Part shown: in pieces, positions 8,430-14,088 of the stretch
Numbering within the stretch: the first letter of the stretch is position 1
Layout of the letters: each line of letters begins with the position of its first letter
The notes under the pieces: generated by a model
Seen by the model: only the letters and a program-made list of their open reading frames with translations
What the model was told of the DNA's origin: nothing
The model's database searches: none
Position numbers and translations under genes: made by a program
Assembly (NCBI GenBank): GCA_002811675.1
Contig: PDIM01000054.1
Coordinates: 243,768-267,877, forward strand
DNA length: 24,110 bases
Source: Ichthyosporea sp. XGB-2017a
Taxonomy: Eukaryota > Opisthokonta > Ichthyosporea
Direction of reading: 5' to 3'

Positions 8430-11400
8430 TTATTTGGTTTCCAATGTGCAAACCCCATCCCAATCATCTCCTGGAGGATTTTCTTTCAAGTAATAGCACC
8501 TTTCGATCATTATTTCTGCCGCCTTGTCGGGGCGAATATCTACACAGTCTTCGAAGTACCCGATAGCCTCATCCCACTTTTGTTTGCGAAACTCTTGCAA
8601 GCCGATGCTATAGTAGTTAATTAACTTAAGCTCGCGCTCTGAAACCCCATTGGTCTTTGTAGCAACGAGCTCAAGAATCCTAACAGGCCTGCTTTTACCG
8701 ACTACCCTAATCTGATCAACTTCTCTTGTGATGAAAAAGTCTGCAATTTGCCTTTCATTGAGAGTAAATTCGCTAATAAGAACTTTCACACCATATGCTT
8801 TTGTGGCTCCTTCAATTCTAGACGCAAGGTTAACACTGTCTCCTATAACGGTATACTCCATTCGCTGAGCACAACCAATATTACCGCTGACAGCAACCCC
8901 GGTATTGATTCCAATTCCATACCTGATGGCGGATCGATTTTGGATAGCTAGTTTCTTGTTCGCTGCCTCAATGTTTTCTGACATCTCAAGTGCGGTATGA
9001 CATGCTCTTAGTGCGTCATCCGGACTCGGAAAAGGGACACCGAAAGTTGCCATGACTGAATCCCCAATGTATTTATCCAGAATGCCATCATTTTTAGTGA
9101 TGGCATCGACAGCACACTCAAAATAAAGATTTAACAGGTCTACCAGTTTCTTGGGATCCATGCTTTCAGACATTTTCGTAAATGAGCGAATGTCACTAAA
9201 GAACACTGAAACTTTTTGTCTATTGCCACCTAATTGGGCCCCGCCATCGTTGAGAACCTTTTTCACAAGCGAAGGAGCCATGTACCTACCCAGGGTTGAC
9301 ATCATCTTGGTTTCAGATGTGATATCTTGGATGACCATGACAATACCAATGTTGTTATTCTTTGTTCGCCACTGTTGAGATAATTTGTAGACTTGTATAA
9401 AATTTTTCTCCCATTCATCGTGATCACTAATTCTTTTACTGAAGAAAGACAGCATCGAAATATGATGAATTGCATTTCGAATCTGGGTCCAATATGTTCC
9501 ACCGGTAGGCTTGTGTGAGCTGTCTCTAAGCGGAGAGAGCGTGTAGTTGATCATCAAGTTACTCTCAAAACCTGAGCTGCTTTGAAGCTCATAGTTATTC
9601 GCCATCACTCTTTCACCCGTATTATATACTTTCTTAATGTCTTCAACCAACGCAGGCGCCGAAGCTAACCAGGTGCCAAACGATAAACTCTTGGCGTCCT
9701 CAGTTCGCACACCTAGACAATCCAAGATATAATTTTGGTTCATAGTGACAAGCTCGCCAGTGCCACTAAGTGTCATGACAGTTGAGTCAATGCTATTCAG
9801 AATATTCTGCAAATAGTGTTGCGTTTGAATAGACTCTTGGAACAATTGAGATTTTTCAATCGCAACAGCCGCTTGAGAACTAAATGCAGAAAGTAGCTTT
9901 TCATCATCTGAATTGAACGTGGCTCGTGTAAGCTTATTAATCATTTGAATCACACCTATAATTTGCTGCTCAATGTTGATAATGGGCATACATAATATAG
10001 ACTTCGTCTTATATCCTGTCTGCTTGTCGACATTTGGATTAAATCTCGAATCCTCGTAAGCATCAGGGATGTTCAAAGTATCCCCCAAAGCAACTGTTGC
10101 CCCGACTATACCTGCCGTCAATGGAATTCGGATCTCCCTCATGTTTCCATCTACATCATAGATATTTGTCCATAGCTCTTGTGATGCCTGATCTATCAAA
10201 AATATTGTACATTTATCTGCCTGAAGTAGATTGCGTGCTGAACTCATAATAACTTGCATCAAATGGTCCAATTCTAGGGTGGAAGAAAGCTTCTTTGTGG
10301 TGTTCAATATGACATCAAACTGACGCTTATATTTTAAAATACCTTCATAGTCCATAGCGCGCGTCAAGGCTAGTGTCGTGACGTCCACCAACACTTGAAG
10401 ATTACTCAAGTCAAAGCTCATAAACTCTGTTTCCCCTATCTTATCAAAGCATACAAGCACACCAGTAGTTGTGACCTGTCCTTTTCGACGCTTTACCCCC
10501 ATAGGGATACACACAGCTGAACTAGGCTTCCCTTCATGGAGCTCAAATTTGGTAGCATAGTCATTGGGACTTAAATTTGGTAAAACTACCACTTGTCCAC
10601 TTGCAGCACACCTTCCTTCAATACCGACACCCAAGTCAATTGATGCAGTGTGAGACGATTTCCCACGTTTTTGTTTTCGCCAAACATACTTTGCATCATG
10701 ATCGAGCAAGTACACATATGCTGCTCGACAACAGACAAGTGCTTTGGCCTGCTCCTCAATTTTTTCAGTCACTTTTTCAGTGTCCTTATACAAAAAAACT
10801 TCGTTAATCATTCTTAAGAAAAAGGCACAGTCGAGCACAATCTTAGACGAATCGGATATCATTTCCTGTTGGTCAGAATTGGCAGTTGGAAAAATTTCCA
10901 GAATAGAATAAATAATATTTAAAGAGTCTATGAATTCGGAGATGGCTTTAGAAACAGTCGAAGAATTCGCCACCGATGGGTGCTCTCCAGAGTCTTGCCT
11001 GGGCATAATGGATGGCCTTCGTGAATGTGACAAGCTTTGTGAAAACCCTATGTTACTAAGTGATGTATAGTTTTCCAAGTTGAGCTTGTACGCTAACGTG
11101 GAAGGATGCCCCTGAGTATCTTCCGCTATACTTCCCCGACTATCTCCATAACTGTTCATATTCAATGATCTCATATTCATGAGGGACAACGCATTCGCAG
11201 AAAAGTCGGAAACTGAAGCCCTTTTCTCAGACGGCATCGCTTCCTGGCCAGTCAACGTTATTGTCGCAATGGGCTGATCTTCGCTTAACGGATCCGAATT
11301 CCTTCTCTGAGCTTCGATTGCCCCAGGAAGCTTCATTGACGCCCTTCGGTTCCGAGTGATTTTGGCCAATTGGTCGTAGTTCTTGCTACTTTTGATACTC

Positions 11401-11771
11401 TTTTTTCGTTCAACTTTACTCACTAAATCCACACAATTCAAAATTATCGATATCCCCCCATTTTGGAAAATTTCTTGCTCCCCGTCTAAATCAGTTGCTA
11501 AAAGCCTTAAAAGCTTGGAGCTATGTATTGCCAAGTTCGGGTCCTTCTGATGTGTTTTCATTAACCTTATAACATGAGGTATTACCTGAGCGGATATAAG
11601 AGTTTTCACTTCGGTCAAACCTTGATTGGCAATATCTGACAACAATTTGACAGCCGCTATAGATCTACTCAGTGTGTTGGCATCGAACAAGTCCATCACG
11701 GCTCTTTTAATACTCTTGTTTCTGATTTTATCAATAGAGAAATCCTCTTCCAGAACTTCTACCTTCTTAAA
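8430..11771 (-). CDS. Class III adenylate cyclase, ARM-like/GAF-GAF-PAS-CHD-TPR (main exon)
   Basis: Makes cAMP from ATP. The exon runs from a TTGTAG acceptor (start 11771) to the stop at 8430. The first in-frame ATG is 11696; residue numbers here count from 11699. Residues 15-95 look like armadillo-type helices, followed by a Ser-rich linker. GAF-A is at about 305-450 and GAF-B at about 472-620. GAF-B contains the full NKx5Fx3DE motif (N588, K589, F595, D599, E600) of cyclic-nucleotide-binding GAF domains. A PAS domain spans 625-795 with an extra stretch of about 48 residues near 735-783. The catalytic domain (822-1012) has both metal Asp (D836 in FFSDIRSFT, D880 in KYIGD), K876 and T950 at the purine-selecting positions, and N957 and R961. 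This K/T pair is the one I recall for cyanobacterial CyaB1, so ATP is the predicted substrate. A TPR-like hairpin lies at 1025-1070. There is no membrane segment, so it should be soluble. Confidence 0.93.
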   Translation of the reverse strand, partial: FKKVEVLEEDFSIDKIRNKSIKRAVMDLFDANTLSRSIAAVKLLSDIANQGLTEVKTLISAQVIPHVIRLMKTHQKDPNLAIHSSKLLRLLATDLDGEQEIFQNGGISIILNCVDLVSKVERKKSIKSSKNYDQLAKITRNRRASMKLPGAIEAQRRNSDPLSEDQPIATITLTGQEAMPSEKRASVSDFSANALSLMNMRSLNMNSYGDSRGSIAEDTQGHPSTLAYKLNLENYTSLSNIGFSQSLSHSRRPSIMPRQDSGEHPSVANSSTVSKAISEFIDSLNIIYSILEIFPTANSDQQEMISDSSKIVLDCAFFLRMINEVFLYKDTEKVTEKIEEQAKALVCCRAAYVYLLDHDAKYVWRKQKRGKSSHTASIDLGVGIEGRCAASGQVVVLPNLSPNDYATKFELHEGKPSSAVCIPMGVKRRKGQVTTTGVLVCFDKIGETEFMSFDLSNLQVLVDVTTLALTRAMDYEGILKYKRQFDVILNTTKKLSSTLELDHLMQVIMSSARNLLQADKCTIFLIDQASQELWTNIYDVDGNMREIRIPLTAGIVGATVALGDTLNIPDAYEDSRFNPNVDKQTGYKTKSILCMPIINIEQQIIGVIQMINKLTRATFNSDDEKLLSAFSSQAAVAIEKSQLFQESIQTQHYLQNILNSIDSTVMTLSGTGELVTMNQNYILDCLGVRTEDAKSLSFGTWLASAPALVEDIKKVYNTGERVMANNYELQSSSGFESNLMINYTLSPLRDSSHKPTGGTYWTQIRNAIHHISMLSFFSKRISDHDEWEKNFIQVYKLSQQWRTKNNNIGIVMVIQDITSETKMMSTLGRYMAPSLVKKVLNDGGAQLGGNRQKVSVFFSDIRSFTKMSESMDPKKLVDLLNLYFECAVDAITKNDGILDKYIGDSVMATFGVPFPSPDDALRACHTALEMSENIEAANKKLAIQNRSAIRYGIGINTGVAVSGNIGCAQRMEYTVIGDSVNLASRIEGATKAYGVKVLISEFTLNERQIADFFITREVDQIRVVGKSRPVRILELVATKTNGVSERELKLINYYSIGLQEFRKQKWDEAIGYFEDCVDIRPDKAAEIMIERCYYLKENPPGDDWDGVCTLETK

Positions 11772-11907
11772 CTACAATTACGTACGTACACACACACAAA
11801 AGCAAAGGAAAAAAAAAACTTTTAAGTTAATCACTTACAAAAATCCTCCGGATAGCTCGACATTAAGCTCCAAAACTCTTGCACATAAATCGGCAAATTC
11901 ACTTTAC
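11772..11907 (-). other. Proposed 136-nt intron in the cyclase gene
   Basis: The donor AAG/GTAAAG is at 11907 and the acceptor TTGTAG ends at 11772. Removing it joins the upstream coding frame (ending QKQYKGRK) to the cyclase frame (FKKVEVLEEDF) in phase 0 with no stop. It contains an alternating GT/CA tract near the acceptor. A second, stronger donor (GTAAGTG at 11838) would give a 67-nt intron; the frame feeding it has a stop, so it would suit a 5'-UTR intron for a shorter cyclase starting at 11696. Confidence 0.5.
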
Positions 11908-12939
11908 CTTTCGCCCTTTGTACTGCTTCTGTGGACATGGAAGCTCCGGTAAATCAATACTGTATTCCCCATACGTACTTCCCCCAAGACCCTGTAATTT
12001 CAAAATAGATCTAGACAAGATTGGAAGCTTCTCATCATTTATAAACAACTGCCCATTTTTGTACACTACACGACGCACTTGTCCTCTCTCTTGTTTCTCT
12101 ACCGTCATTGATCCATTAGCTCCATTTCCAATCTTCAAATCATTATTCACTTTTGGTAACAATTCACTATTTGGTTTATCAGTTTTCTCATCGGCCCCGT
12201 TCTCGTCACACTTATTCGTGTTTTGTTTTGATTTGTCATTGGCGTCCTGTTCGAGATCACTTTCGTCTGCTTCCTGGGATACAAACGAGAGCTCTTTCTT
12301 CACTGGAACTGTACCGGGCTCCAAGTGAGACTCTTCTGAAACTAAAGTTATTCCCTTGAAATTAAGATCCGCAGACGAATGTTTTCGTTTTCCAAACAAC
12401 AGATTAGTAGAGGAATCTTTTCGTATACTCTTCAAATCAAGCACTGAATCATGCAGTTTGTCCCCTGGAGAGATAGAGTTGATTCCACTATTACTTCGAG
12501 GCGAAGCAGCACAGCTGATGCACTCAGGAGAATCTTCCGTGTTTTTTTGTGCACCAGTTTTTGACACATGCAGCAAAATTTCACCGCTACCGCTACTACT
12601 GCTCCTGCTCCTTTCCTTTCGACACTGACAGTTTACTCCCTCTTGCCTTAAGCCCTGATTCCCGTTTCCCTGTCCCAGCCCGCCCTCTTTTTCTTGCCTA
12701 TATCCTATTTCGCTGTCCTCGTCCTCCTCTTCTCTGATACTATGTTTAATCTTTGTTTTGTGCTCTTCAGGGACTGTCCCGAACATCGAATGCCGCCGGA
12801 ATCCCGGCAAAGAGTCTTGCTTTCGACCTCTTTGTTGCCACGGCGGAACAGTAGCTTTGGAGGTGGAAGAGGAGGTACTTGGGGCCCGATACTGTCCCTG
12901 CATATCCAGCTGAGACGACGTAGGAGTTCCCTCTTCCAT
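11899..12939 (-). CDS. Low-complexity coding exon, probable N-terminus of the adenylate cyclase
   Basis: The ATG is at 12939. Read through to its own stop it encodes 346 residues; in the spliced model only 344 codons (12939-11908) are used and the whole cyclase has 1457 residues. The sequence is hydrophilic and disordered, with Gln/Gly/Ser-rich and acidic patches, a Ser run (SRSSSSGSG) and no recognised domain. The last 80 residues (VRRVVYKNGQLFINDEKLP, then LQGLGGSTYGEYSIDLPELP) look more ordered. It shares the strand and a compatible phase with the cyclase and lacks an obvious polyadenylation signal of its own before it. The alternative is an independent small gene ending at 11899. Confidence 0.55.
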   Translation of the reverse strand: MEEGTPTSSQLDMQGQYRAPSTSSSTSKATVPPWQQRGRKQDSLPGFRRHSMFGTVPEEHKTKIKHSIREEEDEDSEIGYRQEKEGGLGQGNGNQGLRQEGVNCQCRKERSRSSSSGSGEILLHVSKTGAQKNTEDSPECISCAASPRSNSGINSISPGDKLHDSVLDLKSIRKDSSTNLLFGKRKHSSADLNFKGITLVSEESHLEPGTVPVKKELSFVSQEADESDLEQDANDKSKQNTNKCDENGADEKTDKPNSELLPKVNNDLKIGNGANGSMTVEKQERGQVRRVVYKNGQLFINDEKLPILSRSILKLQGLGGSTYGEYSIDLPELPCPQKQYKGRKVK

Positions 12940-13216: not shown

Positions 13217-14088
13217 NNNNNNNNNNNNNNNNNNNNNNNNNNNNNNNNNNNNNNNNNNNNNNNNNNNNNNNNNNNNNNNNNNNNNNNNNNNNNNNNNNNN
13301 NNNNNNNNNNNNNNNNNNNNNNNNNNNNNNNNNNNNNNNNNNNNNNNNNNNNNNNNNNNNNNNNNNNNNNNNNNNNNNNNNNNNNNNNNNNNNNNNNNNN
13401 NNNNNNNNNNNNNNNNNNNNNNNNNNNNNNNNNNNNNNNNNNNNNNNNNNNNNNNNNNNNNNNNNNNNNNNNNNNNNNNNNNNNNNNNNNNNNNNNNNNN
13501 NNNNNNNNNNNNNNNNNNNNNNNNNNNNNNNNNNNNNNNNNNNNNNNNNNNNNNNNNNNNNNNNNNNNNNNNNNNNNNNNNNNNNNNNNNNNNNNNNNNN
13601 NNNNNNNNNNNNNNNNNNNNNNNNNNNNNNNNNNNNNNNNNNNNNNNNNNNNNNNNNNNNNNNNNNNNNNNNNNNNNNNNNNNNNNNNNNNNNNNNNNNN
13701 NNNNNNNNNNNNNNNNNNNNNNNNNNNNNNNNNNNNNNNNNNNNNNNNNNNNNNNNNNNNNNNNNNNNNNNNNNNNNNNNNNNNNNNNNNNNNNNNNNNN
13801 NNNNNNNNNNNNNNNNNNNNNNNNNNNNNNNNNNNNNNNNNNNNNNNNNNNNNNNNNNNNNNNNNNNNNNNNNNNNNNNNNNNNNNNNNNNNNNNNNNNN
13901 NNNNNNNNNNNNNNNNNNNNNNNNNNNNNNNNNNNNNNNNNNNNNNNNNNNNNNNNNNNNNNNNNNNNNNNNNNNNNNNNNNNNNNNNNNNNNNNNNNNN
14001 NNNNNNNNNNNNNNNNNNNNNNNNNNNNNNNNNNNNNNNNNNNNNNNNNNNNNNNNNNNNNNNNNNNNNNNNNNNNNNNNNNNNNNNN
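13217..14088. other. Assembly gap (872 N)
   Basis: A run of 872 undetermined bases. Both sides end in the same A-rich low-complexity sequence, so the true gap may be much smaller or zero. Reading frames that appear open across it carry no information. Confidence 0.99.

Follow-up and report, generated by a model that had tools for sequence, protein, structure and literature searches.

The gene Nk52_evm76s2118 of the ichthyosporean Chromosphaera perkinsii encodes a predicted class III adenylyl cyclase (AC) whose two GAF domains, PAS-like fold and catalytic domain stand in the order of the bacterial CyaB enzymes. It occupies positions 8430-12939 of the minus strand of the window, that is, the whole stretch of 24,110 nucleotides analysed here (contig PDIM01000054.1, positions 243,768 to 267,877, assembly GCA_002811675.1, deposited as Ichthyosporea sp. 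XGB-2017a), and its two exons encode a protein of 1457 amino acids. We give a probability of about 0.75 to the reading that this protein is a soluble, homodimeric AC of CyaB-like bacterial design working as a cyclic AMP (cAMP) switch, and that its kinship is with cyclases of Planctomycete type rather than, in any special way, with those of cyanobacteria. The spliced translation (12939-11908 + 11771-8430) was identical letter for letter to the database protein Nk52_evm76s2118 (P0002), and the prefix Nk52 is that of Chromosphaera perkinsii, Ichthyosporea, in excerpts of PMC6981761.

From its N-terminus onwards, the protein consists of a low-complexity region, ARM-like helices, a disordered linker, GAF-A, GAF-B, a PAS-like fold, the class III cyclase and a TPR-like tail (Table 1; residues are counted from the first codon of exon 2). 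A sequence-only reading, which covered exon 2 alone (8430..11771) and missed exon 1, had proposed a CyaB-like order of GAF-A, GAF-B, PAS, class III cyclase and C-terminal TPR behind armadillo-like helices and a long disordered segment. All these elements were recovered: the PAS domain by its fold and its relatives and not by Pfam, the TPR-like helices below the Pfam threshold, and the upstream part by AlphaFold 2 (AF2) helices, fold matches, a hidden Markov model (HMM) and the predicted local distance difference test (pLDDT). Anabaena CyaB1 has the order GAF-GAF-PAS-AC and a Lys/Thr pair selecting the purine. Nk52_evm76s2118 shares this order, and the likeness to CyaB1/CyaB2 extends to the NKFDE motif of GAF-B and to the C-terminal extension, which is matched in cyanobacterial relatives; the P-P/W pattern of this tail was found in 112 of the 121 proteins P0001-P0121. 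The order is also that of Anabaena CyaB2, as described in parts of PMC4411481. However, Nk52_evm76s2118 belongs to a separate clade, adds the ARM-like and disordered N-terminus and has a degenerate GAF-A motif. A hidden intron in the PAS insert was considered as well, but the one GT/AG pair of 60-230 bases with a length divisible by three had poor splice signals and, as a consequence, the insert was taken as real.

All six catalytic residues are present, namely two metal Asp, the purine-selecting pair, an Asn and an Arg, whose roles we take to be those general in class III cyclases; together with the catalytic fold they identify a class III nucleotidyl cyclase. In a 60-row alignment D860, K900, D904 and R985 were invariant and N981 was found in 59 rows. 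The Lys/Thr pair of AC type, also proposed beforehand, is K900/T974. Position 974 is Ser in 19/19 chytrid and Gonapodya rows, in contrast to Rozella and Chromosphaera, which have the Thr found in 41 rows overall. K900 aligns with the position of Cya2 that is Glu in 2w01 and Lys in the engineered AC 6fht. Introducing Lys there (E488K) converts guanylyl to adenylyl cyclase activity, according to excerpts of PMC5995499. Regarding the sensor part, the NKFDE motif of GAF domains that bind cyclic nucleotide monophosphates (cNMP) was complete in GAF-B (5/5 residues) and partial in GAF-A (3/5). At the five cAMP-contact positions of CyaB2 (parts of PMC4411481), GAF-B has K,T,I,D,T compared with R,T,I,D,N, and the final Thr instead of Asn also occurs in 6/8 cyanobacterial rows. 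The best PDB match was the tandem GAF of CyaB2, and the matches to AC5/8/9 and AC10 were far weaker than those to bacterial CyaB and Cya2.

Relatives were collected by three protein searches, taking the best 120 each of 5545, 3475 and 6466 matches. Among the matches listed, the named eukaryotes were Chromosphaera (by prefix), Rozella, Gonapodya, many chytrids and the amoebozoan Planoprotostelium, and the named bacteria included Wallbacteria, Riflebacteria/Ozemobacteraceae, Myxococcota, Elusimicrobiota, Nitrospirota and Planctomycetes. A first tree of 81 rows was drawn from a pool of 341 aligned segments (324 full-span), keeping 34 eukaryotic rows and thinning the others by identity or picking them by name. 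The main tree comprised 68 rows and 613 columns, chosen by hand from this pool and the third search and realigned with MAFFT; P0051 and P0121, with branches >7 and shifted columns in the first tree, were left out. A second tree covered the catalytic domain in 43 rows. Fungal Cyr1 and the animal membrane and soluble ACs were absent from all trees.

In the 68-row tree the 15 opisthokont rows formed one clade (support 99/96), branching in the order Chromosphaera, Rozella, Gonapodya and chytrids, which agrees with the species tree. This clade lay within a larger one of 39 rows (100/98) holding 11 other eukaryotic, 5 unlabelled and 8 Planctomycete-type rows, the last being the nearest bacteria to the eukaryotic family among the rows sampled. 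P0007 and P0077 grouped with Planoprotostelium. No organism label is attached to P0024, P0025, P0032, P0060 and P0226; the first three have long low-complexity N-termini and might, at a guess, be of eukaryotic source. Identity to Nk52_evm76s2118 over the tree span (GAF-B to cyclase) was 44-49% for opisthokont, 42-47% for other eukaryotic and 38-44% for Planctomycete-type rows, and 35-41% for other bacteria. The 43-row tree agreed, with weaker supports, and eight receptor-type guanylate cyclase rows from the same genome stood far apart in it (100/100); the type was confirmed for one of these eight, whose closest match is a natriuretic peptide receptor (1e-109). The catalytic domain falls outside this known clade; a firm placement inside an animal or fungal cyclase clade had been named as a possible refutation. 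Joining P0001 or five opisthokont rows with the receptor cyclases was disfavoured by approximately unbiased (AU) tests (p 0.034 and 0.036). A single clade of these cyclases and all eukaryotic rows was not rejected (p 0.214), which we read as a rooting question because the branch of the receptor cyclases is very long.

These groupings support a little-described eukaryotic family of sensor cyclases. The chytrid, Gonapodya and Rozella GAF-GAF-cyclases (e.g., Spizellomyces SPPG_00950 and Rozella ROZALSC1DRAFT_30510) have the same domain order, so that Rozella and the chytrids are exceptions to the different build that had earlier been stated for fungal cyclases. Two of these proteins differ from Nk52_evm76s2118 by an additional domain, ankyrin in Cladochytrium P0029 and WD40 in Gonapodya P0039. 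The GAF and PAS/PAC sensor-containing cyclase of Planoprotostelium fungivorum (P0027) likewise has GAF-GAF-PAS-AC-tail, but it was not among the ARM-like HMM matches listed. In the FHA-GAF-GAF-PAS-cyclases of Planctomycete type, such as that of Thalassoroseus pseudoceratinae (P0206), an N-terminal FHA (7/8 rows; 3/8 are named Planctomycetes) replaces the ARM-like part, and the GAF-A motif was lost differently (6 rows aligned).

The ARM-like segment is common to Nk52_evm76s2118 and the 14 fungal rows used, Rozella included, from whose N-termini an HMM was built with no Chromosphaera row in the model. This HMM matched Nk52_evm76s2118 (P0001) at 22.5 bits (E 6.9e-6), compared with 7.8 bits for the best of 1000 shuffled N-termini and 9.5 bits for the best non-opisthokont row; it was run after a direct profile-profile comparison of the N-termini had given P 0.0023 but a probability of only 12.6%. 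At least as far as the lineage of Nk52_evm76s2118 is concerned, the match favours a single gene carrying an ARM-like adaptor in opisthokonts, and together the sequence comparisons suggest that Holozoa and Fungi inherited it from their common ancestor.

Several observations weigh against the main reading. Most of the non-opisthokont eukaryotic tree rows carry no species name, P0003 adjoins the opisthokont clade (85/92), and support for pairing the two Chromosphaera rows is 90/31 only. The paralog P0016 was not matched by the N-terminal HMM (0.9 bits, and 5.7 bits with P0001 added to the model), and in the Pfam scan of Nk52_evm76s2118 PAS, TPR and ARM were absent or below threshold. In addition, GAF-A lacks two of the five NKFDE residues and the equivalent of CyaB2 Arg291 is Lys, so ligand binding could be altered. 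Finally, the Planctomycete-type rows nest among the eukaryotic ones, beside P0123 (93/81), whose contig name we take to be that of Cyanophora, and a single eukaryotic origin excluding Planctomycetes was neither rejected (AU p 0.134) nor demonstrated.

This nesting also favours the strongest alternative, in which different eukaryotes acquired the cyclase separately from Planctomycete-like or other bacterial donors. Another GAF cyclase of this genome, C47, sides with other bacteria (100/99) and its union with the family was rejected (p 0.02), and repeated bacterial transfers of AC into a chytrid were inferred in PMC5005798, a table of which gives the Batrachochytrium dendrobatidis AC a bacterial donor at 36% identity. 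That transferred cyclase may belong to the present family. However, the opisthokont rows stay together and branch as the species do, Nk52_evm76s2118 shares the ARM-like N-terminus with the fungal proteins, eukaryotic monophyly was not rejected in the test just cited, and the long branch of C47 (1.81) makes its position unsure. We regard separate acquisitions as possible but doubtful, and the present tree suggests for the Batrachochytrium cyclase an older gene shared with Holozoa, in contrast to the repeated transfer reported. A more specific history is equally tentative: a GAF-GAF-PAS cyclase would have existed in the last ancestor that animals share with fungi, or in an earlier eukaryote, gained the ARM-like part there and later been lost from animals and most fungi, and the FHA version of Planctomycetes, as it nests within eukaryotic rows, would have come by transfer from eukaryote to bacterium.

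As to function, a cAMP switch would work as follows. The two subunits would together form two active sites, each turning ATP into cAMP, and cAMP, or possibly cyclic GMP (cGMP), would bind GAF-B, shifting the connecting helices and altering catalytic output through these and the PAS-like domain. In CyaB1/CyaB2 the cyclase is switched on when cAMP occupies the GAF pair (parts of PMC4411481). By this analogy the feedback is most likely positive, cAMP raising cyclase output, and the protein is probably a cAMP-responsive, self-activating homodimeric AC. GAF-A probably serves dimerisation. None of the aligned bacterial relatives showed the ARM-like module or the disordered segments, whose role is probably to anchor the enzyme or to control it via protein partners. 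A guanylyl cyclase or a cGMP-controlled enzyme in place of the cAMP switch seems unlikely. GAF-B matches the GAFs of the phosphodiesterases (PDE) PDE2 and PDE5, the Lys at the Arg291 position could fit such a reading, and GAFb of CyaB2 alone also binds cGMP, according to parts of PMC4411481; nevertheless, K900/T974 is of adenylyl type, and Cya2, a guanylyl cyclase with Glu at the Lys position, has AC activity in its E488K form.

Still less probable is a transfer from a cyanobacterium, to which the sequence-only reading had pointed. The domain order and the CyaB2 tandem GAF as best PDB match would agree with such a donor, and over residues 804-1113 cyanobacterial proteins reached 39-45% identity in their best matches. 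However, identity over the GAF-B-to-cyclase span falls to 34-37% compared with 42-49% for eukaryotic rows, the cyanobacterial CyaB rows form their own clade elsewhere (100/100), and their union with the opisthokonts was rejected in both the 68-row (AU p 0.0096) and the 43-row tree (p 0.0081). The tests thus discarded a special link to cyanobacterial CyaB, save for cyanobacteria as deep sister of the whole eukaryote and Planctomycete clade (p 0.187). In the phylum of the cyanobacterium G001, 82/117 genomes match the GAF or cyclase part at E <=1e-40, not all of these being CyaB-like.

Bacterial contamination of the assembly, which could be imagined from the bacterial-type domains and from the low share of relatives with a eukaryotic label or source (29 of the best 120 of 5545 matches), is refuted by the GT-AG intron, which the deposited gene model confirms, and by eukaryotic neighbours (frames for a WW/FERM protein, a TAF1 subunit A relative (TAF1_subA), two C2HC zinc-finger proteins and an MFS transporter), and paralogs lie on other contigs, one of them (C47) also with an intron: the gene is nuclear and belongs to Chromosphaera perkinsii. 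Between it and the genes for the C2HC zinc-finger proteins, window positions 13217-14088 are a run of 872 N, either an assembly gap or a withheld stretch.

Table 1. Features of the cyclase gene and its product, with window positions and with residues counted from the start of exon 2.
Feature	Window positions	Strand	Residues and basis
Exon 1	11908..12939	-	344 codons; low-complexity, charged N-terminus; spliced translation = P0002
Intron	11772..11907	-	136 bases, GT-AG type, GTAAAG...TTGTAG
Exon 2	8430..11771	-	1113 codons + stop; P0002 residues 345-1457
ARM-like helices	11346..11735	-	13-142; AF2 helices; beta-catenin ARM among top fold matches; Pfam sub-threshold
ARM-like part matched by chytrid-derived HMM			38-119; E 6.9e-6
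Mostly disordered linker	10878..11345	-	143-298; pLDDT <50 at 139-278 and 290-298
GAF-A	10437..10781	-	331-445; NKFDE degenerate (D,K,F,D,L); Pfam (two GAF stretches), fold
GAF-B	9858..10274	-	500-638; best Pfam GAF stretch; 1ykd and PDE matches; candidate cAMP-binding domain
NKFDE motif of GAF-B	9900..9938	-	N612 K613 F619 D623 E624
PAS-like domain	9324..9791	-	661-816, helical insert ~747-806; fold and alignment to PAS-bearing relatives
Class III cyclase catalytic domain	8643..9242	-	844-1043
Metal ligand D860	9192..9194	-	role by homology; identical in 60/60 rows
Purine-selecting Lys K900	9072..9074	-	60/60 rows
Purine-selecting Thr T974	8850..8852	-	T 41/60, S 19/60 rows
C-terminal TPR-like helices and conserved PPxxxWDGV...K tail	8433..8639	-	1045-1113; helices; TPR_2 0.0014, sub-threshold

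In animals and well-studied fungi, cAMP is credited mainly to G-protein-coupled or Ras-linked ACs, animals having a soluble AC as well. If our reading is true, an ichthyosporean and zoosporic fungi share a soluble, bacterial-style cAMP switch, pointing to a self-contained cAMP source in their common ancestor. Chromosphaera is studied for its animal-embryo-like division, which would make Nk52_evm76s2118 a tractable candidate for life-cycle control in this organism. The chytrid gene transfer reported in PMC5005798 could likewise be recast as older inheritance. No description of an ARM-GAF-GAF-PAS-cyclase family in Holozoa was found in the titles and abstracts searched, most subscription journals lying outside this coverage, and the main text of PMC12716839 does not mention AC. 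The catalytic and GAF parts are of a known kind. As far as this literature goes, what is new is the opisthokont ARM version in a close relative of animals, the relation to Planctomycetes without a special cyanobacterial link, and the fungal change from Thr to Ser.

The source genome examined comprises 25.06 Mb in 291 contigs. An initial scan of genome contigs with the window protein as query gave no relatives. Over the whole 25-Mb genome there were at least 89 exon-wise Guanylate_cyc, at least 11 PDEase_I and at least 46 cNMP-binding matches, which are matches and not genes; it looks like a large cyclic-nucleotide toolkit. The paralog C47:32605-36276 consists of two exons joined at GT-AG and encodes 1182 amino acids with a PDEase_I-like domain, two GAF domains, a PAS region, a cyclase that groups with another bacterial clade than the Nk52_evm76s2118 family, and the tail. 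PDEs carry the motifs HN..H and HD..H and a distal Asp. In a pairwise alignment with P0003, C47 has other residues in place of these His and Asp, and the protein looks like a pseudo-phosphodiesterase fused to an AC. P0003 itself, a transcriptome-derived protein of 1936 amino acids, has five GAF stretches, a PDEase_I match of 247 bits with the His/Asp motifs present and a GAF-PAS-cyclase module; it is a predicted maker and breaker of cyclic nucleotides in one chain. Five further cyclases, C70:107935-116823 (three), C17:36999-37679 and C183:128325-128984, showed little GAF-PAS-cyclase profile score outside the catalytic domain. In the three of them viewed by eye, membrane or HAMP-like sequence precedes the catalytic domain, and all five group with a bacterial-type row that comes from the cyanobacterial phylum, as a third set of bacterial-type cyclases in this genome.

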